Assembly: GCA_025355665.1 (NCBI GenBank)
Contig: JANXZF010000138.1
Span: 1 to 64,000 of the forward strand
DNA from: Actinomycetes bacterium
Lineage (GTDB): Bacteria > Actinomycetota > Actinomycetes > Nanopelagicales > Nanopelagicaceae
Length of the DNA: 64,000 nucleotides
Reading direction: 5' to 3'
Both the position numbers and the translations under genes were made by a program. Within the stretch, counting starts at the first letter, position 1. The number at the start of each line of letters is the position of its first letter. Positions 17,640-33,840 of this stretch are shown one piece after another. Under the pieces are notes generated by a model. That model made no database searches, had not been told where the DNA came from, and worked only from the letters and a program-made list of their open reading frames with translations.

Positions 17640-18752
17640 TCAGCTTACGAAACTGTCTTGCTCTTCTCGCATTAGGCCAGACATTTGCACGGCCTTTTCG
17701 TATGCATAGACACCCCGGTCGGTTAGACCAATCTCCACGAATACTCGTGCGATGTCTCCCCATTGCTTTGCAAGTTCCCGGGAGGGTTCCAATTGCTCCA
17801 TGTGATCGCAAGCCCGAGAAAGTTCAACCCCCGATTGCTCGTAATTGCACATTCTTGCAAGCACTTTCGCAACTTGGACCAGGAGCGATGCTTTAGGGCC
17901 AGGAATCTCAGGTGGCAATTCGGTCAAGCCCTTCTTCGCATATATAAGAGCCATTTCATGGTCTTCCCGTCTCAGAGCCACTTCCGAAAGGATCTCGCAT
18001 GCGTAGGCAACACCTTCAGGGTGATTTTGAGAGGATGCCTCGAGGTAACTCGCTTCTGCTAATTTATGGATTGAGGAAAGGTCCGCGTCAGGACGCTCAA
18101 GCATTATGACGGCGGCGTTGTGATTTAATGCCAGCATCACCTTTCTAAGTCCAGCGATTTGCGTCCAATGTTTTGCTTGGTCGAGCTGGTCCTGAGCGAG
18201 GGCCAGATCACCTCGAACTTCGGCTAGCGCCGCGGATTGCCACAGTGATTGCGCACGACCTTTTGGGGAATCGGCCTGTTGGGCCAGTACCAAGGCCCGA
18301 TGCACTATTTCTTCGGCCCTAGCAGTATCTCCACGAAGAAAATGGCAACTTGAAAGTTGGCAGAGCAACTCAACAACGTCCACTTTGGGCCACGATCCGC
18401 CGTAAAGTCGGAGCATCTCCTCACCACGTGAAGCACCTATCGCGAGATTGCCCGAACGATGGCACACGTTAACGATCTCGTTGCCTACCAATGCCTGGAG
18501 GGCCGAATTTCGTTTTGGGACTTTTTCAAATAAAAGTTCGAGCTGATCCAAAATCCCAGTAAATAGACCTTGCTGAGATTTCACCTGAGCTAAGACTAAT
18601 TCCGCTCTCACTCGGGAAACTCGGGGTGCGCCTTTTTCTCTTTGGATTTCAGTGGCGATTGAGGTGGCGAGTTCAAGATTGCCGGCAGTCAAGGCGACTA
18701 TCGCCTCGTTTAAGGCGGTGTCGAAGTTCCGTCGACGAAATTGCCAAGTCAT
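17640..18752 (-). CDS. TPR-like helical repeat protein
   Basis: 370 aa, repeated A/L-rich helical pairs (e.g. ALVLAQQADSPKGRAQSLWQSAALAEVRGDLALAQDQLDQAKHW). Confidence 0.7.
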   Translation of the reverse strand: MTWQFRRRNFDTALNEAIVALTAGNLELATSIATEIQREKGAPRVSRVRAELVLAQVKSQQGLFTGILDQLELLFEKVPKRNSALQALVGNEIVNVCHRSGNLAIGASRGEEMLRLYGGSWPKVDVVELLCQLSSCHFLRGDTARAEEIVHRALVLAQQADSPKGRAQSLWQSAALAEVRGDLALAQDQLDQAKHWTQIAGLRKVMLALNHNAAVIMLERPDADLSSIHKLAEASYLEASSQNHPEGVAYACEILSEVALRREDHEMALIYAKKGLTELPPEIPGPKASLLVQVAKVLARMCNYEQSGVELSRACDHMEQLEPSRELAKQWGDIARVFVEIGLTDRGVYAYEKAVQMSGLMREEQDSFVS

Positions 18753-18816: not shown

Positions 18817-19011
18817 TCAGCCTTGGAATTGCGATAGGACTGATTTTGGTGAATGGCTCCGGATGAAAACGGGGATTTGATCGATTGGAGTTGCGACGTC
18901 GATCCATTCTCCGCTATTTCTCAGTTTGTGGTCCCAAAAGTCAATCCAGACACCTTCTGGTAAATACACTCGTTGTGTCGTAACATCCACCTCGATATCG
19001 TGGAGCGTATT
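18817..19011 (-). pseudogene. Remnant of a GH31 C-terminus
   Basis: Minus-strand translation directly after the GH66 stop, same frame: NTLHDIEVDVTTQRVYLPEGVWIDFWDHKLRNSGEWIDVATPIDQIPVFIRSHSPKSVLSQFQG*; matches end of the GH31 at 26173-28404 (EVTVAKVYLPEGDWKDFWSTQGYSGQQWIEVNAPLNRIPVFVRRDAPSLINFDLA). No start codon of its own evident. Confidence 0.85.
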
Positions 19012-20598
19012 TCAGGTATTTACCGAATAGGGAATATTGACGATCGTCCACGCCGATTCAATATCGATTTCCACGCTCAACCGTTTTCCTTCGACATTTA
19101 GCGTCTTGAGATCGAACTTCGCGCCATTCAAGCCATGGCCAAATGAAGCTTGCTGTGAAAACCCGGCCGCTTCAATGGAAATTGTCAGTTTCGATTTGGA
19201 GGAAATCGGTTTCTTTGGCGTATCCCACAAACAATCGTCCTGATCTAGCAGATTGATCACGTGGAATGTGAGTCCAGTTCGACCAGTGAAAACTCTAATC
19301 CAGAGTTGTTTAGCAATCGCTTCGTGACTGATTGGGTGAGCGGAACCAAATTTGATCTCATTGTTTACTCCGAAAGCGTTGATGAGCGTGACATCAACTC
19401 GCGTTCTATCGTATATGAGGTCGCCTGCAGCAACCAGGAAATCGTAGTAATTTTGAATAGTCTTCAATGTCGATTCCGGCGCTACATAGTTGTTTACATA
19501 GTATGCGTGGTGAAGAACTCGGCCGTCGCCTCCTGTGATCAGGTGTGATGCACCGCCAGATGTGATGCTCGCAAAAGCCAACTCAAAAGAGGCCACTGCC
19601 TCTGACTCTTCGACGCCCTTACCGATCACCCCAAATGGGTGCAGATAGGCGGAAAGTATTACGGGTTTTGAAGGGTCCAGTAGACGCGCTTTCGTGGCCA
19701 GATCAGCCAAATCCATGTAAGTGGAATGAGGATCCCAAACCTCAATATAGGTTGCGTGTTGCGGAGATTGAGTCGTTGACCACGTCGGATAGTCGTTCAC
19801 GTTGTTGAAAATAAGTTTGCACGATGGAATTTCTTTTGCCATTTCTTCCAGCATTTCCGGGAATCGGTCGGCAAGATCAACGGCGATGCCATCTGCCCTG
19901 AGTGCATTTTTTGGCCAGCCGTATTGATCAAGATGGAATGCAGTGAAGCCGAATTCGTGAGCCTTCTTCAATTCGGAGATCATGTGTTTAAGCCATAGGG
20001 GATCGGCCGGGTCGACTATCCACAAGAAATTGTCGCCGAGTGTGTAAGGATTTCCTTCGGTATCGAATAACCCCGAGTCCTTCCATCTTTCCCAACCTTC
20101 GGCATCTACGGCATAAATCGCTGCGTACCCAGATGCCGTGGCGCCAACCTTGAGGTAACCGCGAATAAGTTCTTTGATTTTTTCTGTTGAGATGTGCTGT
20201 CCAAGGGGATCTGGATAATGGGAATCAGCTGTCGTCAGAAATTCATGCTTCCAGGCCCAGTCGTAAAATTGGATAGCAGTTAGGTGAAGTTTCTGTGCCC
20301 AATTCACATAGTCTTGAGTTTGCACTGAATCTGAAAATTCGGCGATAAAGCCGTAGCGCATCCTCTCCCAAGGATCTTGAAGAACCTCGAAGGCCGAAGT
20401 GATAGTGCTTCCATCGGAGTTGGTCCACGTCAGCGAGTACGCCCCTTCAGGAAGAGTACCTAGGTTGAACTTAGTACCACTCTTTAAATCTGAAATTGGC
20501 AAGGCAAGATGAGTAACGGAAGCGGTTCCTGAATCGGGAGCTAATCCGGTGATCTCCTCCGTTGGAAGGTATGAAACCTTGTCGAATATCAGATCCAT
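19012..20598 (-). CDS. Glycoside hydrolase family 66 (dextranase / cycloisomaltooligosaccharide glucanotransferase-like), no signal peptide
   Basis: RMRYGFIAEFS, QFYDWAWKHE, GFTAFHLDQYGWPK, LIFNNVNDYPTW, ATYIEVWDPHSTY are GH66-like motifs. Confidence 0.85.
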   Translation of the reverse strand: MDLIFDKVSYLPTEEITGLAPDSGTASVTHLALPISDLKSGTKFNLGTLPEGAYSLTWTNSDGSTITSAFEVLQDPWERMRYGFIAEFSDSVQTQDYVNWAQKLHLTAIQFYDWAWKHEFLTTADSHYPDPLGQHISTEKIKELIRGYLKVGATASGYAAIYAVDAEGWERWKDSGLFDTEGNPYTLGDNFLWIVDPADPLWLKHMISELKKAHEFGFTAFHLDQYGWPKNALRADGIAVDLADRFPEMLEEMAKEIPSCKLIFNNVNDYPTWSTTQSPQHATYIEVWDPHSTYMDLADLATKARLLDPSKPVILSAYLHPFGVIGKGVEESEAVASFELAFASITSGGASHLITGGDGRVLHHAYYVNNYVAPESTLKTIQNYYDFLVAAGDLIYDRTRVDVTLINAFGVNNEIKFGSAHPISHEAIAKQLWIRVFTGRTGLTFHVINLLDQDDCLWDTPKKPISSKSKLTISIEAAGFSQQASFGHGLNGAKFDLKTLNVEGKRLSVEIDIESAWTIVNIPYSVNT

Positions 20599-20600
20599 TG

Positions 20601-21716
20601 TTAATTCACTCCTTCGTTAAGCATGAGTAGATACATCGCATGTGACCAAAGTAGAGGAGTGGCGACCGGCCCCCATCGTTTCACCCAGGGATCCACCATT
20701 TCCGGGTCCTGGGTGCCGTTGATGCTCTGCTCTGGCAATTCCAAGGTTTCGGTGGCCTGGTCAACGATCCATTGTCGGGCAGATTCGAAATCTTCTTCAT
20801 TACCCATAAGCCGGTCATACCAACCGAGCCAGCTGGTAAGGAGTATCCACTCTCCGCCACCGAAGTAGGTGTCTCCAAGGTAGCGATGAATTCCACCGGT
20901 TTGACCGCGAAGATCTGATCGGATCGCCTCGACTGTCTTCACAAAGATGGGGTCATTCAATTCAACGAGTCCGAGAGGAAGTGCTAACCAGAGCAAACTC
21001 GAATCGACGCGATCATCACTAAGTCCTTTGCAAAATCGTCCATTCCTTACAAAGTTGGCGAGTAGGGCCTTGCGGACTTCTTTGGCCTCTAAGACATACT
21101 TATATTCGCCCAAAAGTATTCCCGCGCTTTTGAGGCCCGCAGAGATCGCAGCGACAGTCGACGCATGCTGCCCGTCTCCAAATTCCTCCCAACAGTCAAA
21201 GCAATTGGTCTTCCAGGTTGCGGACAGGTATCTAGCAACAAGGTCAACTACTTCTGCATTAAAGTCGGTATTTCCCAATTTATCGTGGTGCCTTCTTAGT
21301 TCGGCAAGCCACAGGCCGTAGCCATCCAACTGATAATTGGGCCATGCCGAATTCTCCAATTCACCGAAAGTCTCTAGAGCGCCGTCCAACGTATAGCGAG
21401 TCGGGAGCATCTCATCCATGTGTGGCATTTCGCCGTTATCAAGGCGGAGAATGAGTGATTCAGCAGCAACCTTCTGTTCTAAGAGTGTGCGTTCTGCCCA
21501 TCGATGGAATCTTGTAGCCGAATCGGAATTACCAACGGAATCCATCGCCATGGCGCAATAAGCGCCATCTCGCAACCAAGAAAATTTGTATGTTGGGAAA
21601 TTCGGGGAAGCGACGTACGCGCCGGAAGGTGCCTGACCAGCAAGTATGACCTCAATACTTTTTAGACCCAGCCCCCCATCGGCGGTTATCAAGGGAGTGT
21701 ACAAGGGGAAGGTCAT
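20601..21716 (-). CDS. GH15-family glucoamylase-like / exo-acting alpha-glucan hydrolase
   Basis: SGAYVASPNFPTYKFSWLRDGAYCAMAMDSVG; C-terminal ATPLLWSHAMYLLM. Confidence 0.85.
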   Translation of the reverse strand: MTFPLYTPLITADGGLGLKSIEVILAGQAPSGAYVASPNFPTYKFSWLRDGAYCAMAMDSVGNSDSATRFHRWAERTLLEQKVAAESLILRLDNGEMPHMDEMLPTRYTLDGALETFGELENSAWPNYQLDGYGLWLAELRRHHDKLGNTDFNAEVVDLVARYLSATWKTNCFDCWEEFGDGQHASTVAAISAGLKSAGILLGEYKYVLEAKEVRKALLANFVRNGRFCKGLSDDRVDSSLLWLALPLGLVELNDPIFVKTVEAIRSDLRGQTGGIHRYLGDTYFGGGEWILLTSWLGWYDRLMGNEEDFESARQWIVDQATETLELPEQSINGTQDPEMVDPWVKRWGPVATPLLWSHAMYLLMLNEGVN

Positions 21717-21722
21717 TGTTCT

Positions 21723-22568
21723 TTATCCTTTCAATGCATCAGCGGAGAGTCCGTGGATAAACTGTCGTTGAAATAGGGCGAAGACCACGATCACCGGAAC
21801 GATTGCAATCGTGGAGGCAGCGAATACGAGCCCCCAATTTGTTAAGTGCTGTCCTTGAAATATGGATATTGCGATGGGCAGAGTTCTTTTATCGGGATCA
21901 TTGATGATCGTAAGAGCCCAAACATATTCATCCCAACAGGCCAAGAAGGTGAAGATTCCAACGGTTGCAAGGGCCGGCCTTGATAAGGGGAGGATGAGTT
22001 TCCAGAAGCGGCGGAATGGACCAGCGCCGTCCATGATCATTGCTTCTTCAAGTTCCCAAGGTATTTCTTCGAAGAAGCCTCGCAAGAGAAATGTATTGAA
22101 GGCCAAATTGGTGGCAACGTAGAAGAGGATGAGCCCGACCAGCGAATTGATGAGGTGCAATTGATTTGCGAGCAGATATTGGGGGATTAGAAGCATCATG
22201 CCAGGCACCATCAAGCCCACCAGTAGCAGCCAGAACATCAAATTTTGGCCCTTGAAATTGAAGCGCGCAAAGGCGTAGGCCATCATTGCCGATAAGAGTG
22301 CAGCGATGACTGTCGACACTAAGGACACGAATACCGAGTTGGCGAAATAGTGGCCGAAGCTATTGGACGTCCAGGCGTCTGTGTAGTTGCTAAGTGTCGG
22401 GTGCTTCGGAATAAATTGCGGCGGAATCTCGAATAAGTATAGTTGCGGCTTAAATGAGGTGGCGAACAGATAGAGAAATGGAATGATCATTATCGTGGCT
22501 CCGACAATGAGCGTCACATAGCGTGCCGCTCTGAATGTGATACGTCGTTTTTTGCTGCCGACGATCAT
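21723..22568 (-). CDS. Carbohydrate ABC transporter permease (MalG-type)
   Basis: Six TM pattern, EAA loop EEAMIMDGAGPFRRFWKLILPLSRPAL. Confidence 0.93.
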   Translation of the reverse strand: MIVGSKKRRITFRAARYVTLIVGATIMIIPFLYLFATSFKPQLYLFEIPPQFIPKHPTLSNYTDAWTSNSFGHYFANSVFVSLVSTVIAALLSAMMAYAFARFNFKGQNLMFWLLLVGLMVPGMMLLIPQYLLANQLHLINSLVGLILFYVATNLAFNTFLLRGFFEEIPWELEEAMIMDGAGPFRRFWKLILPLSRPALATVGIFTFLACWDEYVWALTIINDPDKRTLPIAISIFQGQHLTNWGLVFAASTIAIVPVIVVFALFQRQFIHGLSADALKG

Positions 22569-23500
22569 CGGACCACCCTTGTTACGCCGCCTCTAAAGAG
22601 CCGCATTTGAACGAACGAGATTGCAAAGACGATTATTGCGAGTGTGAATGCCAGGGCTGAGCCGTAGCCGAAGTCCAAGAATTGGAATGCTTGGTGGTAC
22701 ATGTAGCTCAAAACGACTTCTGTTTGTTGCTGTGGACCTCCGCCGGTCATGATGAATGCAGACGTGAACACGTTGAGACTGCCGATGACAAGCATGATGG
22801 TGACGAAACTAAGTGTTAAGCGTATTGAGGGAAGGGTGACGCTAAAGAAGGAACGCCAAGGTCCTGCGCCGTCAATAGCGGCAGCTTCTGTAAGTGAATC
22901 AGGAACTCCCATAAGAGCGGCTAGGAATATCAACATCGACCAGCCAACGCCCTTCCAAACTCCCAGGATGCCGATCGTGATCATGGAGGGCCATCGAGTA
23001 TCGAGCCAGCCAATATTGTGAGAGGAGAGATGCAAAAGATTATGCAATATCCAGTTTACGAAACCTGCATCTGTACTAAAGAGAAACTTAAATAACAGTG
23101 AGACAACAACCCAGCTTGTCACAACAGGAATGTAGAAGAGGGCTCTGAATAATCCGCGTCCAGGGATTTTTCTAACAAGGAGCATTGCAACCGACAAGCC
23201 AAATACTATTTGAAGAGGCACCGTAAAGACCATATAAACGGCTGCGTTTTCAAGGGCCCGCCAAAATACAGGATCGTGCATTTCACGAACGTATTGGTGC
23301 AAGCCAACAAAAGTCGTTGGAGATCCAGGAAAGACTCCCCAGTTGTAGAAACTTATTTGTAATGCTCGAAAAATCGGATAAATAATCGTAAGCAAGAAGA
23401 GTAAAAAACCGGGTGCCAAGAAAAGGTATGGGACAAATCCCGCTTTGCTAGGTTTTGAGGGCCCGTGTGGAACGTTGGCCAGCACCGAGGTGCTGGCCAA
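22565..23500 (-). CDS. Carbohydrate ABC transporter permease (MalF-type); start codon uncertain (TTG 23500 or GTG 23485)
   Basis: PYLFLAPGFLLFLLTIIYPI..., EAA loop EAAAIDGAGPWRSFFSVTLPSIRL; no in-frame ATG near the expected N-terminus. Confidence 0.9.
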   Translation of the reverse strand: MASTSVLANVPHGPSKPSKAGFVPYLFLAPGFLLFLLTIIYPIFRALQISFYNWGVFPGSPTTFVGLHQYVREMHDPVFWRALENAAVYMVFTVPLQIVFGLSVAMLLVRKIPGRGLFRALFYIPVVTSWVVVSLLFKFLFSTDAGFVNWILHNLLHLSSHNIGWLDTRWPSMITIGILGVWKGVGWSMLIFLAALMGVPDSLTEAAAIDGAGPWRSFFSVTLPSIRLTLSFVTIMLVIGSLNVFTSAFIMTGGGPQQQTEVVLSYMYHQAFQFLDFGYGSALAFTLAIIVFAISFVQMRLFRGGVTRVVR

Positions 23501-23504
23501 CGTT
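23471..23504. repeat. 34-bp near-perfect palindrome (16-bp perfect arms, 2-nt centre)
   Basis: AACGTTGGCCAGCACC-GA-GGTGCTGGCCAACGTT between SBP stop and MalF reading frame. Confidence 0.97.
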
Positions 23505-23516
23505 GAGCGTCCATTT

Positions 23517-24785
23517 TTACTTGAGTAGTGGCTCAATTTGCGCCGCTGCCTCGTCCATTGCTGCTTGTGCTGTGACTTTGCCTGACATTGCTGCGGCAAC
23601 TTGGGTTCCGATGATCGCATCGATCTTTGGATAGTTAGGTACTGGTGTACGAGCTTCTGCTGTCGCTAATTGTTTCAGGAAGGTCGCGTAATAAGGATGA
23701 ATGGCCGTTACCTGACTGGTTAGAGCGCTCAATACTGAGAGCTGTCCGGCCTTAGTCATCGCGACCTGTGCGCTCTTGGAAAGCATGAAGCGTACGAATG
23801 CCATGGCAGCTGGTTTATTCTTGCTCTTGGCGGTGACGTTGATGTCTTCGCCGCCGACAACGCTATGGCTGCCTCCAGCACCTGCTGGAACGAGTGCTTG
23901 AACAGGGTGGAAGTTTGGATATCCGCCTGCCCAGATTGGGTTCATCCAAGGTCCATCTAATGTCATTGCAAAGTTACCCTTAGCAACTCCATCGTAGGTA
24001 CTCATACCGCCAGATGCGCCAAGCATTGAATCTGGAATCGCGCCCGCCTTGTAAAGGTCAGTGAGGAACTGGATTGCTGACACGGTCTTAGCTCCGTTGA
24101 TGTAACCCTTGGCGGTCGTATTGGTTGCGTTTGTTACAGCGCCCCCGGCAGACCAGATCCATGGCAAAACATTCCATCCACCGGTTCCACCATCACCATA
24201 AAGGTAGATGCCCTGAGCTTTTAGAAGTGGAGCATCGGCCAACATGTCAGCGAACGTCTTTGGAACAGTGGTGATTCCAGCCTTTGCGAATGCATCCATG
24301 TTTGCGAAAGTTACGCGAGTGTTGGTATCTAGCGGTAGGCCGTAATAGTGACCTCCGTAGTAGTTGGTTGAGAGTGTGCCTGGATATACGGTCTTAGCCA
24401 ACTTATCGAATCCAGCCATTTTGCCATCGAGTTGAGCAAAGACTTTGCCCTGAGCGAAAGTTGGAACCCAAGGCAGGTCTGAGCGAACTACGTCGGGGAG
24501 GGTATTTGTCATGGCACTGGTGAGGAGCTTCTGATATAGGTCATCGTGGCTGAAAACCACATGCTTGACGATGATATTTGGATTCGCCTTTTCGAAGGCA
24601 GGAATCAGCGTCTTCTCAAGGGTTGGGGTCTCAGACGTCGAATATGAGGTCCAAAACGTGATGGTGACCTTCTTGGCCGGAGCGGCATTCGCACCGTAAG
24701 TGGCTCCAAACATGGAAACGAGGGATCCGACTACGAGGAATGCGACTGATCGCTTTACCCTCAAAGATCCTTTTCTATCTGTCAT
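23517..24785 (-). CDS. Carbohydrate ABC transporter substrate-binding protein
   Basis: Signal peptide-like N-terminus, then VTITFWTSYSTSETPTLEKTLIPAFEKANPNI; family 1 solute-binding pattern. Confidence 0.93.
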   Translation of the reverse strand: MTDRKGSLRVKRSVAFLVVGSLVSMFGATYGANAAPAKKVTITFWTSYSTSETPTLEKTLIPAFEKANPNIIVKHVVFSHDDLYQKLLTSAMTNTLPDVVRSDLPWVPTFAQGKVFAQLDGKMAGFDKLAKTVYPGTLSTNYYGGHYYGLPLDTNTRVTFANMDAFAKAGITTVPKTFADMLADAPLLKAQGIYLYGDGGTGGWNVLPWIWSAGGAVTNATNTTAKGYINGAKTVSAIQFLTDLYKAGAIPDSMLGASGGMSTYDGVAKGNFAMTLDGPWMNPIWAGGYPNFHPVQALVPAGAGGSHSVVGGEDINVTAKSKNKPAAMAFVRFMLSKSAQVAMTKAGQLSVLSALTSQVTAIHPYYATFLKQLATAEARTPVPNYPKIDAIIGTQVAAAMSGKVTAQAAMDEAAAQIEPLLK

Positions 24786-24994
24786 TACTTCTCCTGTCGT
24801 GGGTAGGAAGCGATTTGCATTCAGACCGGGGGGGTGAATGTGTCGAGCGACATATTTCTACAGTGGAAATAAGTATCTGTCAATAGCCCCATTTTGCCCC
24901 ATTTCGTCAGGGTGTTGTTTTATTGACGGAAATAATCGAATATGGCAGGCTTCTACCCTGCGCCGCAGTATGAGGAATTACGGAGGAGTCCAAT

Positions 24995-26146
24995 TTGAAG
25001 ATAGCGGCTCCGCCTTGGATCCCCCAATCTGTGCAAACTCGGGCCGTGGCATTGGAAGTGCTTCTGCACGGCCCTATCTCGCGAATAGACATTGCGCGTC
25101 GATTGAACCTATCACCAGGTTCTCTGACGCGCCTGAGCACGCCATTGATCGAGTCTGGGCTATTGGTGGAAATTAATTCGGAAGGCCGTTCAGATTGGAA
25201 AACGGGAAGACCGTCCAAACCCTTAGATGTCGTTGCCGCATCTAGACATTTCATAGGTATGAAAGTGACTGGCGAAGATGTCACTGCAGTTGTGACTGAT
25301 CTGAGGGCAAACGTTGTCGCGCAGAGCTACCGAAAGCTCACATCCCAAGTGCCAGATATGGTCGTAGTTCAGATTGCTGAGTTAGCCCGAGAACTGGCTG
25401 AGCGCGTAGATGAAATTACTGCTCTTGGTATAGGCATCGGCGGATTGGTAAATGATAAATCCGAAGTGCTCAGTGCGCCTTTTTTAGGGTGGCAGGATGT
25501 CCCGCTTGGTTCAATGGTAGAAGGTATGACAGGGATTCCCACTGTAGTTAAAAATGACGTTATTGCTTTTACCGAGGCCGAACACTGGTTTGGGGCTGCG
25601 AGTGGCCTTTCGAGATTCGCCGTAATTACTTTAGGAATTGGAGTCGGATTCGGTTTGGTCATCCATAATCAAATCGTCATGGATGCAGACTACGGCTTAG
25701 GTCTAGTAGGTCACTGGCCAATAGATCCATTTGGACCACTCTGCCCGTCTGGCCACAAGGGCTGTGCACGCATGGTTCTCACGCAAGGTGCCATCGTTCA
25801 AGCCGTTGAAAATGCAATTAATCGCAACGTGAATTACGAAGAGATTCTGCAAATGGCGAGATCAGATGAACCAGTTGCAAGGAGAGTAATAGACGATGCC
25901 GGTCGAGGCCTTGGGAAATTAATCGCAGCTGTTGCAAATCTGACCTCTCCTGAACTAATAATTCTAGGCGGCGAAGGAGTTGGGCTGGTGGAAGTTGCGG
26001 CCGCTTCCATTCAAGAGGGAATAAAAGAGCAAAGAGATCCGAAGGCGAAGAAGATCAATTTTGTAACTACCTCGGGTGACAATATGGAGTGGTGCAGGGG
26101 CGCGGCAGTACTTGCAATTCAAGAGTATGTTCTGGGGCGCCCTTAA
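24995..26146 (+). CDS. ROK-family transcriptional regulator/kinase-like protein
   Basis: N-terminal winged HTH (ISRIDIARRLNLSPGSLTRLSTPLIESGLL) then ROK ATPase fold (LGIGIGGLVND, GVGFGLVIHN). Confidence 0.93.
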   Translation: MKIAAPPWIPQSVQTRAVALEVLLHGPISRIDIARRLNLSPGSLTRLSTPLIESGLLVEINSEGRSDWKTGRPSKPLDVVAASRHFIGMKVTGEDVTAVVTDLRANVVAQSYRKLTSQVPDMVVVQIAELARELAERVDEITALGIGIGGLVNDKSEVLSAPFLGWQDVPLGSMVEGMTGIPTVVKNDVIAFTEAEHWFGAASGLSRFAVITLGIGVGFGLVIHNQIVMDADYGLGLVGHWPIDPFGPLCPSGHKGCARMVLTQGAIVQAVENAINRNVNYEEILQMARSDEPVARRVIDDAGRGLGKLIAAVANLTSPELIILGGEGVGLVEVAAASIQEGIKEQRDPKAKKINFVTTSGDNMEWCRGAAVLAIQEYVLGRP

Positions 26147-26172
26147 CCGATTCGAGAAGGTTATTTTCTGGA

Positions 26173-28404
26173 CTATGCGAGATCAAAGTTGATCAAACTT
26201 GGTGCATCGCGGCGTACGAAGACAGGGATGCGATTCAGAGGCGCATTCACCTCGATCCATTGTTGTCCCGAGTATCCTTGAGTACTCCAAAAATCCTTCC
26301 AGTCTCCCTCAGGGAGATATACCTTCGCGACAGTTACTTCTGGTTCCACTACGGGAGCCACTAGTAAATACCGACCCAGCATGTATTGATACGTAGCGTT
26401 CCAAATCTCTGGATCATTTGCGTAGTCAAAGAACAATCCTGCCATTAAGGGGCGACCGGTTGAAATCGCTTCTACACCCTCACTTTCAAGGTAGGGGATG
26501 AGCATCTTTCGTATTTCTACGAAGTCTCGAAATACTGGGACAACTTGCGAGTCGCCGGTTTGTTCTGCGACGTTCCACGGTGTTCGATCGTTGGACGGAA
26601 CTGCGTGATGATTGAATTCTGAATGGAATTGCATGATCGGACAGAAGGTCGCCATCGCTGTTCCACGCAAATAAAGCTCGCTAGAAGGCAATGGTCCGCT
26701 AAATCCGCCGATGTCCCAACCCCAGAAGAAAATTCCACTGGCTGATGCGGTTATGCCGGCACGAACTGATGCACGATAGGCATCCCATGTGGAATCTTCA
26801 TCGCCTGCCCAAAATGTTGGGTAAGAACTGCTTCCTGCAAAACCAGCGCGAGAAAAAGTGATTCCCTCTTTACCAGAGGACTTGAAAAGCTCGTGAAAAG
26901 TTTGCGCATAAGCGACGGGGAAGAGGTTGTTTTTCTCGAGTCCCGAGTGACCATCTAAATATTGCAAGTCGCTTCCCCAGGCGTGTTCTCCGCCATCTGT
27001 TTTGAATCCATCGACTCCCAAGTCGGCAACCAGGTAGCGGTGCAAATCTGCCCACCACTGCCGCACTTTGGCATCCGTTAGGTCGGGCATGAGAGCGTCA
27101 CGGAACCAGAAACCGCGCACCTTATACGGATTGCCTTGACCATCTCTAATTACAAAGTTGTTGTTAACTGCGTAGGCCCACATGGCACCGACTTGGCTAT
27201 CTGGATCACCTTGATCATTGATCACGGGAATCTGCCAGAGAATGAGTTTCATCTCTTTGGCATGTAGCTCATCAATCATCTTCTGCGGGTCAGGCCACGC
27301 ACCATCTGTTGGATAGTGAAGGTCAGCCGCCCGAAGTCCTTTCGAGCCATCGTTAGGGGTGTATTGGGCATCTCTGAAGACTGTAAAGGTGGATTCATCG
27401 GACCAGGCTTCGATGACGACAACGCCAACTTCTATGTCGTTGGCAATGCTTGCGTTAATTTCCTTTTCAACGCGAGCTTGTGTGTTCCATTCATTGCTGC
27501 TTGCCCATAACGTGTAGATCCAACTTGGCGGGGCTTCTGGCAAAGTGAATTCTGATATGTACTGCTTGAGAATTTCGGATGGGGTTCCAACGTAACCCTT
27601 GATCTCGCACATTGTTTGTGTTGTGCTGATGTCGACCTCGATCACAAGTCGGTCTGAGGTGGTTACACCGACGTCGTAACGACTTGGAGTCGATGTGTTT
27701 ACGTAGAAGCCGTAATTGCTTCCGATTACCATCGCGAATGGCGCTGGAAGATAGGTCCGATGACCTTGTCCCTTGTACTCCTCATAGACAACGGCATCGA
27801 CGAATTCGCCGCGTTGATTTACCGAGTGAAAGCGTTCGCCAAAACCGACTACTCGATCCTCTTCATTTAGGGGGAGTGAGGTGCGTATGCGAAATATCTG
27901 ACCGCTTGAATCTTTCAGAACTTTTCTGTCAAGAAGATCGATATTTGTCGGATAAGTCCCGCCGGACTGGATGAATCCCGAATTATCGGCCGACCACACG
28001 AGTGCGGAGACTGAAAAGGGATCGGTGTGTTCTTTCAGATCACTTTCTAGCCAGTAAATTACTTCTTCATAGTCGTGTAGGGCGGGAAGTGAAATCTCCC
28101 ATTCCATTTGGCCTGGATAGTCTCCAGATCGAGCAGCAGCATCGGCCAGGTGTGTGTTACCGCCAGTGAATTTGGCTGTTGCCCCATACGGTCCAAAATC
28201 ATCGGATTGCGCATTTCCCAGACATGCAAGTTCATAGACATGCGTTGAAGATTCCCGGCGCAGGTGAAGTGTGACCTTCTTGGCATTCATATCCGTCCGC
28301 GCTCTTACTTTCCACGCCTCTCCGGCAATTGGGTAGACAGGAATTCGTTGGTCAGGTTCGTGACGGTATGGATGACCAAGGCCCAATGGAGCATGACGTA
28401 ACAA
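26173..28404 (-). CDS. Glycoside hydrolase family 31 (alpha-glucosidase-type)
   Basis: GVDGFKTDGGE nucleophile region, FWAGDEDSTWDAYR, C-terminal VYLPEGDWKDFWS. Confidence 0.93.
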   Translation of the reverse strand: MLRHAPLGLGHPYRHEPDQRIPVYPIAGEAWKVRARTDMNAKKVTLHLRRESSTHVYELACLGNAQSDDFGPYGATAKFTGGNTHLADAAARSGDYPGQMEWEISLPALHDYEEVIYWLESDLKEHTDPFSVSALVWSADNSGFIQSGGTYPTNIDLLDRKVLKDSSGQIFRIRTSLPLNEEDRVVGFGERFHSVNQRGEFVDAVVYEEYKGQGHRTYLPAPFAMVIGSNYGFYVNTSTPSRYDVGVTTSDRLVIEVDISTTQTMCEIKGYVGTPSEILKQYISEFTLPEAPPSWIYTLWASSNEWNTQARVEKEINASIANDIEVGVVVIEAWSDESTFTVFRDAQYTPNDGSKGLRAADLHYPTDGAWPDPQKMIDELHAKEMKLILWQIPVINDQGDPDSQVGAMWAYAVNNNFVIRDGQGNPYKVRGFWFRDALMPDLTDAKVRQWWADLHRYLVADLGVDGFKTDGGEHAWGSDLQYLDGHSGLEKNNLFPVAYAQTFHELFKSSGKEGITFSRAGFAGSSSYPTFWAGDEDSTWDAYRASVRAGITASASGIFFWGWDIGGFSGPLPSSELYLRGTAMATFCPIMQFHSEFNHHAVPSNDRTPWNVAEQTGDSQVVPVFRDFVEIRKMLIPYLESEGVEAISTGRPLMAGLFFDYANDPEIWNATYQYMLGRYLLVAPVVEPEVTVAKVYLPEGDWKDFWSTQGYSGQQWIEVNAPLNRIPVFVRRDAPSLINFDLA

Positions 28405-28408
28405 AGAA

Positions 28409-29512
28409 CTAGTCCTTTCGAAGTGCTGAATAGAGTGAGAGGTACATCGCGTGGCTCCACAACAGCGGAATGGCAGGCTCGCCCCATTGCTCGATCCATT
28501 GGGCGCGCTTTTCCGGCTGAAGTAGAGGTTCCTCCAATTGTTCGGGAAGTTCCAATTGATTGTTGGAGACGGTGTCCATCCAACGAAGAATTTCTTCGGC
28601 TCGATCTCGCTCGTCTAATGAAATGTATGCCAAGCCGAGAAAACAGGAGAGCAGCGGCCATTTCCCGCCGCCGAAATACCAGTCGTCTGAATGCCGGTAA
28701 GTGCCCAAGAAGCCGAGGGATGTGGCTACCGCATCGACAGTCTCTCTTGCGATGCTGTAATCATTTGCCAGCAACCCAAAGGGAGCAACCAGAGCGATCA
28801 GGCTCGCATCCAGTCCGTCTCCGTCAATCCATTTTGCCAAGCGACCGTTGGAAAGGCCCCGGTGGCGGATCAAATACATTATTTGTTTGGCAGTATCGGC
28901 CGCAAAGGTTTTGGATTCGTCAGAGATGTTTTTCCATCGACTGCATCGCTCGAGCCCTGCCGCCAAACTGCCTAGGTTTGCAATGTGCTGGTGGCCGTAG
29001 CTCTCTTCCCACCAGTCGTAGGTATCGATTTGCCAGAACGTGCCTAGATAACCGATGAGCGTCTCGACAGCGCGGTATGTGGCCAAGGGGAGTGAGTACC
29101 CTCGAATTAGGAACTCATCCAGAGACCAGATCCACGTTCCAAACCCATCGAGTTGAAGGTTGGTCCATTCTTCTTTGGATTCTTCGCCGTTGACCGTGAA
29201 CCTGCAATGCAAATGCTCGTCATTGGTAATCTTTTCGCCCTGTTTTCCGCGGCGGATGAGTGAGGCGATTTTCTCCTCTCGTTCGATGATGATTTTGGTA
29301 GCCCAAATATGAAAGTCCAGCGCGCTGTTGTGTTCACCGGTGGCGCTCATCGCGTCAGCAATAAATGCGCCGTCTCTAAACCAGCTGAAGTTGTACACAT
29401 TGAAATTTGGAGAAGCGATGTAGGCGCCGGAGTCTGCTTGATTCGCTTTAATGATGCGAATACTTGCGTCTCGTAACGACGTGTGAGTTTTAGTAAAGAT
29501 TTCGTTTACCAT
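28409..29512 (-). CDS. GH15-family glucoamylase-like protein, paralogue of 20601-21716
   Basis: SGAYIASPNFNVYNFSWFRDGAFIADAMSATGEHNSALDFHIWA and PAIPLLWSHAMYLSL parallel the other GH15. Confidence 0.88.
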   Translation of the reverse strand: MVNEIFTKTHTSLRDASIRIIKANQADSGAYIASPNFNVYNFSWFRDGAFIADAMSATGEHNSALDFHIWATKIIIEREEKIASLIRRGKQGEKITNDEHLHCRFTVNGEESKEEWTNLQLDGFGTWIWSLDEFLIRGYSLPLATYRAVETLIGYLGTFWQIDTYDWWEESYGHQHIANLGSLAAGLERCSRWKNISDESKTFAADTAKQIMYLIRHRGLSNGRLAKWIDGDGLDASLIALVAPFGLLANDYSIARETVDAVATSLGFLGTYRHSDDWYFGGGKWPLLSCFLGLAYISLDERDRAEEILRWMDTVSNNQLELPEQLEEPLLQPEKRAQWIEQWGEPAIPLLWSHAMYLSLYSALRKD

Positions 29513-29551
29513 CGTTTCTTGTAGACCTTATGAATCGGGAAGTGAAAGGTG

Positions 29552-29587
29552 AATGGCGTTGCGATCCCTAGGAACTGCAACGCCATT
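29552..29587. repeat. Inverted repeat, 11-bp perfect arms, 14-nt loop
   Basis: AATGGCGTTGC-gatccctaggaact-GCAACGCCATT, just after the stop of SBP 29597-30865. Confidence 0.93.
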
Positions 29588-29596
29588 ACCCCCTAT

Positions 29597-30865
29597 TTAT
29601 TCTTTTGCGAGGATTGCATTTACATCAGATGCGGCGCTGTTCAATGCGTCAGTTACGGAAACTGAACCACTGAGTGCCTTTTCAAGCCATCCGTTGACAG
29701 CATCTTGCATTTCATTCTGCTGACGGATGACGGGGGGAGTGATTGGGTTCTTCAATGCCTCGAACACTGCTGCACGGTTTGCAGGAGGATTCTTCGACAA
29801 GTAGATGGAAAGGGCCGATTTGCTTGAGATAGCCGGGATTTCCCAGTTAGCGGCAAGACGGATCTTCACTGCAGCGGGATCGCTGGTCATGAATTGAGCC
29901 CATTTCCATGCTGCATATGGAGCTTTGGACTTTGCAGAGGCCACTACGGCATTAGCAAAGAAGTGATTACCTGGCTGAACTCCGCCTGGCTCAACGGCAA
30001 CGTCCCATCCAAATGGTGCATCCTTGAATGAGTCAAAGAGCCAGATGCCAGAGTGGTACATGGCGATCTTGCCAGCTTTGAACATTGCGTCGTCTGCTTG
30101 TGTTCCCATTTGGGCCTTGGTTGGAGTCCAACCGTTTTGGGTTTTGCTTACTAGCCAGGTAAGGGCATTGACTCCTGGCTGTTTGTTGAATAGTGCGGTC
30201 TTCTTGTCTGCACTAAGGAACTGACCACCAGCTTGTCCCAAAACTTTGTAGAACTCCCAGAATTGAGTTGGCTGGAAGTCAGCGAAAGTTCCTGCAGGGA
30301 GATTTGCCTTCAACTTTGCGGCTGCGGCGGCTTCGTCGCTCCAGTCCCATTTGGATGTAGGTAGGGCGACGCCTGCCTGCTTGAAGAGGTCCTTGTTGTA
30401 GAAGAGAACTACCGTGGAGAAGGAAGACGGAACGCCGAGCTGCTTTCCGCCGAGATTGAACACGTCGTAAGCCTTGCCGTAATAGACGGACTTCTTGAAA
30501 GAGTGATCCTTAGCAGATGCCTTATTTAGGTCAAGTAAAGTTCCAGCCGCAGCATAAGTTACAAAGTTCTCGTAGTTAAGCTCAAAGGTGTCTGGAGTTT
30601 GGTTTCCCGCAACGCGAGTCTTCAATTTGGTGAAGTAGTCTGCGTACGCTGCAGATTGAATATTTACTTGGATCGTCGGATTCTTCTTTTCGAAGGCCGC
30701 GACCATGGCTTGGAGATCCTTCATGTGGTCAGGAACCGCAGTGAAGGTAAAGAAATTGATGGTCGTTTTGGAAGCAGCAGCAACGGGATTGCTGACTAAT
30801 CCAACACTCGCCACCAAGATTCCGGCAATGCCGACCGCCCAGATTTTTCTTTTAGTGCCTTTCAT
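29597..30865 (-). CDS. Carbohydrate ABC transporter substrate-binding protein
   Basis: Signal peptide-like N-terminus; TINFFTFTAVPDHMKDLQAMVAAFEKKNPTIQVNIQ; family 1 SBP pattern. Confidence 0.92.
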   Translation of the reverse strand: MKGTKRKIWAVGIAGILVASVGLVSNPVAAASKTTINFFTFTAVPDHMKDLQAMVAAFEKKNPTIQVNIQSAAYADYFTKLKTRVAGNQTPDTFELNYENFVTYAAAGTLLDLNKASAKDHSFKKSVYYGKAYDVFNLGGKQLGVPSSFSTVVLFYNKDLFKQAGVALPTSKWDWSDEAAAAAKLKANLPAGTFADFQPTQFWEFYKVLGQAGGQFLSADKKTALFNKQPGVNALTWLVSKTQNGWTPTKAQMGTQADDAMFKAGKIAMYHSGIWLFDSFKDAPFGWDVAVEPGGVQPGNHFFANAVVASAKSKAPYAAWKWAQFMTSDPAAVKIRLAANWEIPAISSKSALSIYLSKNPPANRAAVFEALKNPITPPVIRQQNEMQDAVNGWLEKALSGSVSVTDALNSAASDVNAILAKE

Positions 30866-30942
30866 TTCTTTCCCCCCTAGTAAGTGGTGAAGCTAGGCCG
30901 TAAAGGCCATCCCCACGGCTGATAGGTAACCCAAATGATGAT

Positions 30943-31773
30943 TCATCCTTTTAGGCCAGCCGTGAGAAAACTTTGTGCGATTTGTTTCTGTAAAATCAGG
31001 TAAATCAGTGCGATCGGAATGACCGCGATAGTTGTTCCCGCCATGACCATCGGCCAGTCCGTGAGGTTTTCTCCATGAAGATTGGAAAGCGCTAATGGAA
31101 GCGTCATCTTCTCCGGGCTAAAGATCACGATGAGAGGCCAGAGATAGGCGTTCCACACAGACATAAACGAGAGGATGGCCAGCGCGGCAAGTGTTGGCGT
31201 GCACAGTGGCAACGCGATTGAGAAGAACATCCTGATGTGACTTGCCCCGTCGAGTACTGCGGCTTCTTCAAGCTCACGAGGGATTGCAAACATCGCCTGA
31301 CGCATCAAGAAGACACCGAAGGCGGTCACGATGGAAGGCAATCCGAGTCCAACGAGGCTATCGATGAGGTTGAGTTGCCTCATTTCAATGAACAAAGGAA
31401 CAATGATTACCTGCATCGGGATCATCATTGTTGCCAAATAGATCATGAAGATTATGTTCTTAAAGCGGAAGTTCAGCCGCGCAAATGCATAGCCGGCAAG
31501 CGCAGAAGTAAATAGTTGGAGTGCGACGCAGACAACCGTGACTGAGATGCTGTTTAGGAAAAGTCGGGGCCAGTCCAAAGCCTGAAATACATGGCGATAA
31601 TTTTCAAGCGTCGGATGCTTTGGAAAGAGCGTAGGAGGCGTTGCAAACGCTTCAACGCCGTTCTTCAATGATGAGCTGATCATCCAGAAAAAGGGGAACA
31701 GCATTACGAAGCCGAAGAAGATCGTGAAGTATTTAGGTTTTGGACTCTTTCTCGTATTGGCTGACTTACTCAT
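30943..31773 (-). CDS. Carbohydrate ABC transporter permease (MalG-type)
   Basis: EAA loop EEAAVLDGASHIRMFFSIALPLCTPTLAA, six TM pattern. Confidence 0.93.
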   Translation of the reverse strand: MSKSANTRKSPKPKYFTIFFGFVMLFPFFWMISSSLKNGVEAFATPPTLFPKHPTLENYRHVFQALDWPRLFLNSISVTVVCVALQLFTSALAGYAFARLNFRFKNIIFMIYLATMMIPMQVIIVPLFIEMRQLNLIDSLVGLGLPSIVTAFGVFLMRQAMFAIPRELEEAAVLDGASHIRMFFSIALPLCTPTLAALAILSFMSVWNAYLWPLIVIFSPEKMTLPLALSNLHGENLTDWPMVMAGTTIAVIPIALIYLILQKQIAQSFLTAGLKG

Positions 31774-32638
31774 AGTTCACCCACCGTTTCTGCAGGCGAA
31801 TTTGGACTCCGGTAACAATCATGATGATCAAGAACAGAACCATGCTCAACGCGGACGCGTATCCCATATGCCCGTAGTCAAATGAGTTCCTGACGATTTC
31901 TCCTACGACAACGTTGGTGGAGCCTTCTGGGCCCCCGGCAGTCATGACCCAAATCTGGTCAAAGACTTGGAAGTTGTTGATCAGACTTATGACTACAACG
32001 AAAAAAGTGGCAGGCGTTAGCAAAGGAAGAGTGATCTTAAAAAGAACCTGTCGTTTTGATGCGCCATCGATGGCAGCAGCTTCCTGGTACTCGGGGGGAA
32101 TTGCCTGTAGCCCCGCAAGAAGCAAAAGCATGACGTAGCCCAAGTCTTTCCAAGCAGACGGGATGATAACTGAAACCATCGACCACGATTTACTCGTCCA
32201 CCACCCAGGACCTTGTATGCCAATGACATGTAGCGCGGAATTCACGAGGCCACCGCTTGGATTAAGAATCCATTTCCAAAGCAGCGCGACGATGACCCAG
32301 CTAGTGATTACAGGCAAGAAATACATTGCGCGCATGGCGCCGGAACCCTTGAATTTTCGGTTGAGCGCTAGGGCCGCCGAAAGACCCAAGAAGTAGACGA
32401 TCGGCAGGTATCCGGCAATGAATACCAAAGTGTTAATGAGCGAGTGAAGAAATTCTTTATCGTGGATAAGTTGTTTGAAATTTGCAAAACCAATCCAGTG
32501 GGGAGGGGAGAGTAGGTCCCAACTCGTGAAACTGAGTACCGCAGCCGCAATCATTGGCAGGACGAAGAAAGCGAGCAAGGGTATGAAGCTTGGCGCTATG
32601 AATAGGGCGGCAGTGCGGCCGTTTCTTTTTGAAGTCAC
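31766..32638 (-). CDS. Carbohydrate ABC transporter permease (MalF-type)
   Basis: EAA loop QEAAAIDGASKRQVLFKITLPLLTPA; N-terminal LFIAPSFIPLLAFFVLPM. Confidence 0.93.
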   Translation of the reverse strand: MTSKRNGRTAALFIAPSFIPLLAFFVLPMIAAAVLSFTSWDLLSPPHWIGFANFKQLIHDKEFLHSLINTLVFIAGYLPIVYFLGLSAALALNRKFKGSGAMRAMYFLPVITSWVIVALLWKWILNPSGGLVNSALHVIGIQGPGWWTSKSWSMVSVIIPSAWKDLGYVMLLLLAGLQAIPPEYQEAAAIDGASKRQVLFKITLPLLTPATFFVVVISLINNFQVFDQIWVMTAGGPEGSTNVVVGEIVRNSFDYGHMGYASALSMVLFLIIMIVTGVQIRLQKRWVNYE

Positions 32639-33840
32639 GAAGCGTGGCTATCGATCTTCGCAGCGATTCGGAGTCGGTTTTTAACTTCGGTAGAAGATGC
32701 GTTGGATCGATGATTCCTGCTTAGGGATGCTTGAAGCACTATCGCGGTTGCACCAAGTGCCCATTTTGCGTCATCCCAAGGGTCAACTTCGATGTCAAAT
32801 TTGTTCATGGTTGCAACCACGTGAGAGGCGAGGGCCTTCTTGAAATGTTTCTCCCACAGGTCCCAGCCTTCGACGCCTTCTCCGCTTATGAAAATGAGTT
32901 CAGGACCGAAGACGTTGATGACGTTCGCTAGGGCAATTCCGAGACGTTCGGCTGGTTCGGTGAATAATTCGTCAGCGATCTTCTTGTCTTTTCGAGCGAG
33001 CGCCCATAGCTGTGCCATCGAGGCGGACTTCGGCAAGTAACCCGCAGCAATGGCCGCATCAAGGATGGCGGGGCTTGATGCCACGGTTTCCAAACATCCG
33101 AATTTGCCGCACTCGCATTTAACACCGGCAGCTAGCGCGTTGACATGCCCGAATTCACCCGCCCCGTAGGACCCTGCATAAAGTTCGCCATTGATTACGA
33201 GCCCCATGCCGATACCGCGGCCAAGGGTGATGGTGAGGAAATTGCTGACGTCTCGTCCGTGTCCGTAAAGACTCTCTGCGATTGCCAGGGTGTTGACGTC
33301 GTTCTCAAGGAGGACTGGCGTATTAAGCGCGTCCGAGATTCGCTTTCCAACATTGACATTGTTCCAACCCAGCATTGCTGAGTCGGCTGTTCCAGAATCG
33401 ATGGGGGAGACAACACCCGGAATGCCGATTCCGATTCCGAGCAACTGTCCCTTGATCTTCCTCGACTGCTTCTTAAGGAGAGCGATCAATTCTTTGATTG
33501 CATCTTCGCCCCGTGAACTGAAGGGTTCTTCAAAGCTCCACAAGATCTCGGACTGAAGGTTTACGCAGACTCCAACGGCGTGATTGTCCGCGAGCTTTAT
33601 ACCTAGAACCTGCCCCGCATTTGCAACTAGCCCGAGCAAGGTGGCCGGCCGGCCACCTGTAGAAGGGGACTGCTTGACCTCGGAGATCAATCCGCGATCA
33701 AAGAGATACTTGGTTGCCTGAGTAAGAGTCGGGCCGCTTAGGCCCAGATCTCGTGCTAATTGGGCTCTGGAAACAGGTCCGTTGGTTGCAATAGCTCTCA
33801 AAACTTCATTTGTGCTATCTCGCATGCTCTTCCCCCTCAC
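32635..33840 (-). CDS. ROK-family transcriptional regulator
   Basis: wHTH (VSRAQLARDLGLSGPTLTQATKYLFDRGLI), ROK zinc motif CECGKFGCLE. Confidence 0.95.
   Translation of the reverse strand: MRGKSMRDSTNEVLRAIATNGPVSRAQLARDLGLSGPTLTQATKYLFDRGLISEVKQSPSTGGRPATLLGLVANAGQVLGIKLADNHAVGVCVNLQSEILWSFEEPFSSRGEDAIKELIALLKKQSRKIKGQLLGIGIGIPGVVSPIDSGTADSAMLGWNNVNVGKRISDALNTPVLLENDVNTLAIAESLYGHGRDVSNFLTITLGRGIGMGLVINGELYAGSYGAGEFGHVNALAAGVKCECGKFGCLETVASSPAILDAAIAAGYLPKSASMAQLWALARKDKKIADELFTEPAERLGIALANVINVFGPELIFISGEGVEGWDLWEKHFKKALASHVVATMNKFDIEVDPWDDAKWALGATAIVLQASLSRNHRSNASSTEVKNRLRIAAKIDSHAS

Follow-up and report, generated by a model that had tools for sequence, protein, structure and literature searches.

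A probable remnant of a deleted GH31 gene behind the GH66 gene of an actinobacterial alpha-glucan operon

Solved enzymes and pseudogenes related to the locus

The closest solved relatives of the intact GH31 enzyme treated here (GH31b) are the cycloalternan-degrading enzyme (CADE, PDB 5f7s/5i0g) and PDB 5x3i, both matching over the full length with E about 1e-200, and GH31b carries an AIMA-like N-terminal domain according to Pfam. We take 5x3i to be the 1,3-alpha-isomaltosidase of Kribbella flavida. The structure 5i0g is named TpCADE in PMC9061262. For the GH15 of the neighboring operon (GH15a), which is not part of the scar described below, the closest solved relative is the Kribbella flavida enzyme of PDB 5z3a, named isomaltose glucohydrolase in PMC12446779, and this relationship fits a pathway for oligosaccharides of the dextran or alternan type. 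The GH66 of the same operon belongs to the family of dextranases and cycloisomaltooligosaccharide glucanotransferases, and it is reasonable to infer that the genes would serve an intracellular pathway for alpha-1,6/alpha-1,3-linked gluco-oligosaccharides.

Directly behind this GH66 gene lies a short GH31-like tail (Table 1). Unlike CADE and 5x3i, it is reduced to the final 59 residues and has no active site. The best parallel is with truncated pseudogenes in bacterial operons: there, too, part of a coding region has its homolog in a gene that a relative carries whole in the corresponding position, and the catalytic part is lost while the neighbors are intact; the only peculiarity of the scar, not an essential difference, is that the tail happens to share the frame of the upstream stop. 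We consider it about 93% probable that the scar was left when most of a second GH31 gene (GH31a) was deleted behind GH66, that is, by ordinary gene decay. The literature found for pseudogenes and small freshwater actinobacteria consisted of general papers on genome streamlining.

Table 1. Positions of the scar and of the surrounding genes in the window (the whole stretch of 64,000 nucleotides that was analyzed)
Feature	Position	Strand	Evidence
TPR-repeat gene directly downstream of the scar, syntenic anchor	17640..18752	minus	ORF and Pfam
Remnant of the deleted GH31 gene (GH31a): last 59 codons and TGA, encoding the second half of its C-terminal beta-domain	18817..18996	minus	84% DNA, 49/59 aa vs G014; PF21365
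Junction patch AATACGCTCCACGAT, 15 nt, GH66 stop to GH31 tail	18997..19011	minus	residues NTLHD; no in-register alignment to the GH31 tail
GH66 gene, intact, 528 aa, native TGA	19012..20598	minus	PF13199 E=6e-67; 88% identical ortholog in G014
GH15 (GH15a, isomaltose glucohydrolase-like) of the GH66 operon	20601..21716	minus	PDB 5z3a/5z3d E about 1e-64; 92% identical in G014
ABC sugar transporter, two permeases and binding protein, operon head	21723..24785	minus	ORFs, names assigned by inspection; 92-96% identity to G014
GH31b, intact GH31 of CADE/AIMA type in the second GH15-GH31 operon, paralogous to the deleted gene	26173..28404	minus	Pfam, PDB matches

Identity of the tail and the same locus in relatives

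The GH66 gene, which lies on the minus strand, ends with TGA at 19014-19012, and translation confirmed the statement of an earlier note that the same frame stays open behind this stop for about 64 codons; it runs for exactly 64, from 19011 to the TGA at 18819-18817. The peptide translated from 18817-19011 (minus strand) is NTLHDIEVDVTTQRVYLPEGVWIDFWDHKLRNSGEWIDVATPIDQIPVFIRSHSPKSVLSQFQG, followed by the stop. It matches Pfam PF21365 (Glyco_hydro_31_3rd) with E=8.2e-10, above the gathering score, over model positions 41-83 of 87. The search against GH31 proteins that the earlier note had proposed was likewise significant, and the peptide aligned, as claimed there, with the C-terminus of the intact GH31 at 26173-28404 (BLASTP, 45% over 51 aa, E=1e-15). 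In addition, tblastn against the whole genome gave E=1.6e-10, and the best match among solved GH31 enzymes was 6jr6 (E=5e-8). These matches are far beyond chance, and the remnant is not an accidental reading frame. Pfam found no TIM barrel match in the remnant, which thus lacks the features of a GH31 enzyme, a TIM barrel with two catalytic aspartates.

The GH66 protein was searched against 60 relatives, and GH31 was searched in the genus. In MAG nzgw101 of the same genus (G014; contig JAHEXJ010000006.1, G014:C49), a full 744-codon GH31 gene stands directly behind GH66, at the exact place of the remnant, and the order GH15-GH66-GH31-TPR-TetR, found on one contig, is the same as in the window. 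The remnant DNA is 84% identical to this gene over 180 nt (E=5e-51), and its protein matches the end of the G014 enzyme at 83% of positions (49 of 59 residues); the remaining GH31 tails of the set were all only 39-57% identical to the remnant protein. The two contigs are collinear: one flank, from FtsK to TetR, has about 87% identity in DNA over 17.6 kb, the GH66-GH15-transporter stretch is 84% identical at the DNA level over 5.8 kb, and the genes on the far side of the GH66 operon show 87-89% identity. A second relative (L024, Umea1p3_bin-463) likewise has GH15-GH66-GH31. Because the remnant is closest to the same-locus GH31 of G014 and the gene order recurs in L024, we assign it to the end of a lost GH31a. 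It thus has these properties of a deletion-type pseudogene: it is significantly homologous to one part of a functional family, its catalytic domain and start are gone, and a relative carries the intact ortholog at the corresponding locus.

The comparison for a full GH66-GH31 arrangement, also suggested in the earlier note, therefore succeeded in both relatives, and the intact 744-codon ortholog in G014 together with the pair in L024 supports the reading preferred there, loss of nearly all of a second GH31 gene. The note had deduced the expected place of a GH31 gene from the order GH15-GH31 of the second operon; the place is right, and its best evidence is the GH15-GH66-GH31 order of the relatives instead. 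A deep split between GH66-linked and GH15b-linked GH31 proteins was not seen, the G014 enzyme being about equally distant (57-67% identity) from the other full-length GH31 proteins in their main part. Derivation of the remnant from GH31b itself was rejected, since identity is 40% to the GH31b tail versus 83% to the G014 ortholog. In another genome, the GH31 gene is matched by two overlapping segments that lie in different frames (L012 1305-2817, G017:C204; tail 1305-1517, body 1498-2817), possibly due to a frameshift or an assembly error.

Extent, junction and age of the loss

G014 has 2,069 nt between the GH66 stop and the onset of clear tail homology; the window, where this homology begins at 18996, has 15 nt. 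The net loss relative to G014 is 2,054 bp, about 92% of the GH31 length, and the retained part comprises the equivalents of about residues 685-744. The junction patch contains ACGCTCCAC, which is found with 9/9 matches inside the G014 GH31 gene, 41 nt ahead of where the tail homology sets in, and with 8/9 matches as ACACTCCAC at the GH31 5′ end of G014. This sequence may derive from the GH31 interior or, alternatively, from its 5′ end.

We propose that the ancestral operon consisted of the ABC transporter, GH15 and GH66 and ended with GH31a of about 744 codons. One deletion or, on the same reconstruction, two would then have taken out about 2.05 kb in the lineage of this genome. The lost stretch would begin immediately after the GH66 stop, or a few codons into GH31, and end near codon 685; the last 59 codons with their stop would have been left behind. 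A single clean deletion relative to G014 does not hold as a strict description, for the 15 junction nucleotides are out of register. By one route, a large deletion would have been followed or accompanied by a net loss of 38 bp, which is not a multiple of three; by the other, a few GH31 5′ codons would have been kept in an ancestor with a different intergenic region.

The draft genome comprises 138 contigs and is 95% complete, and such assemblies can collapse paralogs; an artefact was considered in which GH66 was joined to a GH31 tail while an existing GH31a was dropped, or in which two strains were mixed. However, GH31b of the window and the GH31 gene of G014 have no exact match longer than 16 bp, a length below the usual assembly k-mers and too short for typical repeat collapse, the junction holds the 15 nt patch and not a shared repeat, and the GH31a body lies on no other contig, whole-genome searches having found no further GH31a sequence. 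We regard an artefact as improbable. Recombination between the GH31 paralogs as the cause of the loss was also rejected, given this short exact match, the low identity of the remnant to the GH31b tail and the presence of the intervening genes.

Differences between the remnant and G014 are distributed as 5, 4 and 19 over codon positions 1, 2 and 3, dN/dS over the 59 codons is 0.19 (NG86) or 0.15 (YN00), and no frameshift or stop was found within the remnant relative to G014. This coding-like, uninterrupted pattern suggests that most substitutions predate the loss of function, and by this comparison the deletion appears to be recent when set against the divergence from G014. The pattern, covering only 59 codons, fits a recent deletion, and continued selection would fit as well.

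Such selection would be expected if the tail served GH66 as a C-terminal extension, and the in-frame position and the 64 open codons would suit that as well. Yet GH66 has 528 aa and a TGA in both the window and G014, so its stop is native and was not made by the deletion, and in G014 the frame has a single open codon after the stop, GH31 being a separate gene. None of the nine GH66 relatives examined carries a GH31-like extension behind the stop, so the conservation expected of a readthrough extension is absent, as is the general presence in GH66 relatives that would have spoken against a deletion. The RNA fold around the GH66 stop is not unusual (z = -1.1), and no recoding element was seen there in this check. 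Reading of the sequence found no ATG in the open frame of the remnant, and the GTG codons at positions 8 and 15 have no well-spaced ribosome-binding site. The earlier note had called the tail fused in frame: the frame is indeed the same, but a fusion does not follow, because the stop is native, and the agreement is most simply a coincidence with a chance of 1 in 3. Its view that a readthrough product is the less likely reading agrees with these results. That the tail, covering only part of the domain model, is still translated through low-level readthrough of the GH66 TGA (giving GH66 plus a GH31 half-domain) or from a weak start of its own (giving a separate small protein), and is kept for use, is therefore hardly credible.

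Matches to a terminator or a promoter inside the scar were at chance level only. With no catalytic residues and no recognizable start signal, we infer that the scar is a dead gene end without function, half of a C-terminal beta-domain, at most transcribed in the GH66 mRNA. The tail should accordingly be annotated neither as a protein nor as an extension of GH66.

The paralogous operon and the variable slot

In the window, the slot from ROK2 (32635-33840, a ROK-type regulator) to TPR-TetR holds the GH15b-GH31b operon, ROK1 and the GH15a-GH66-remnant operon. On the continuous contig of G014, the same slot holds the GH66 operon only, and no second GH31 was found in that assembly (83% complete); in G015 and G006, only the GH15b-GH31b operon lies between ROK2 and TetR. 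The content of this slot therefore varies between species. The window block 24799-32634 (about 7.8 kb, the GH15b-GH31b operon and ROK1) is absent from G014, where ROK2 adjoins the GH66 operon; the second operon was either gained here or lost in G014.

The two sister genomes have a single intact GH31 apiece, a pattern that points to redundancy as the condition for the loss: GH31a was probably dispensable thanks to GH31b in the second operon, 7 kb from the scar. The genome with the second GH31 operon lost the GH31 of its GH66 operon, whereas the sister species without the second operon kept it. The locus thus offers a clear example of recent gene loss in a small-genome actinobacterium and a small system for testing paralog redundancy in the use of alpha-glucans.

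Two further genes of the window show patterns of their own. The TPR gene (17640-18752) has 61% protein identity to its G014 counterpart and a 4-fold site identity of 0.26, compared with 81-100% and 0.47-0.79 for the other genes around it, and was either replaced by recombination or is evolving fast. ROK1 (24995-26146) is 88% identical to a G015 regulator (L019 2309-3457) that precedes a similar transporter-GH15-GH66 operon at another location of the G015 genome. The GH66 operon of G014 has ROK2 beside it and an upstream region unlike that of the window, and a swap of regulators between related operons is possible.
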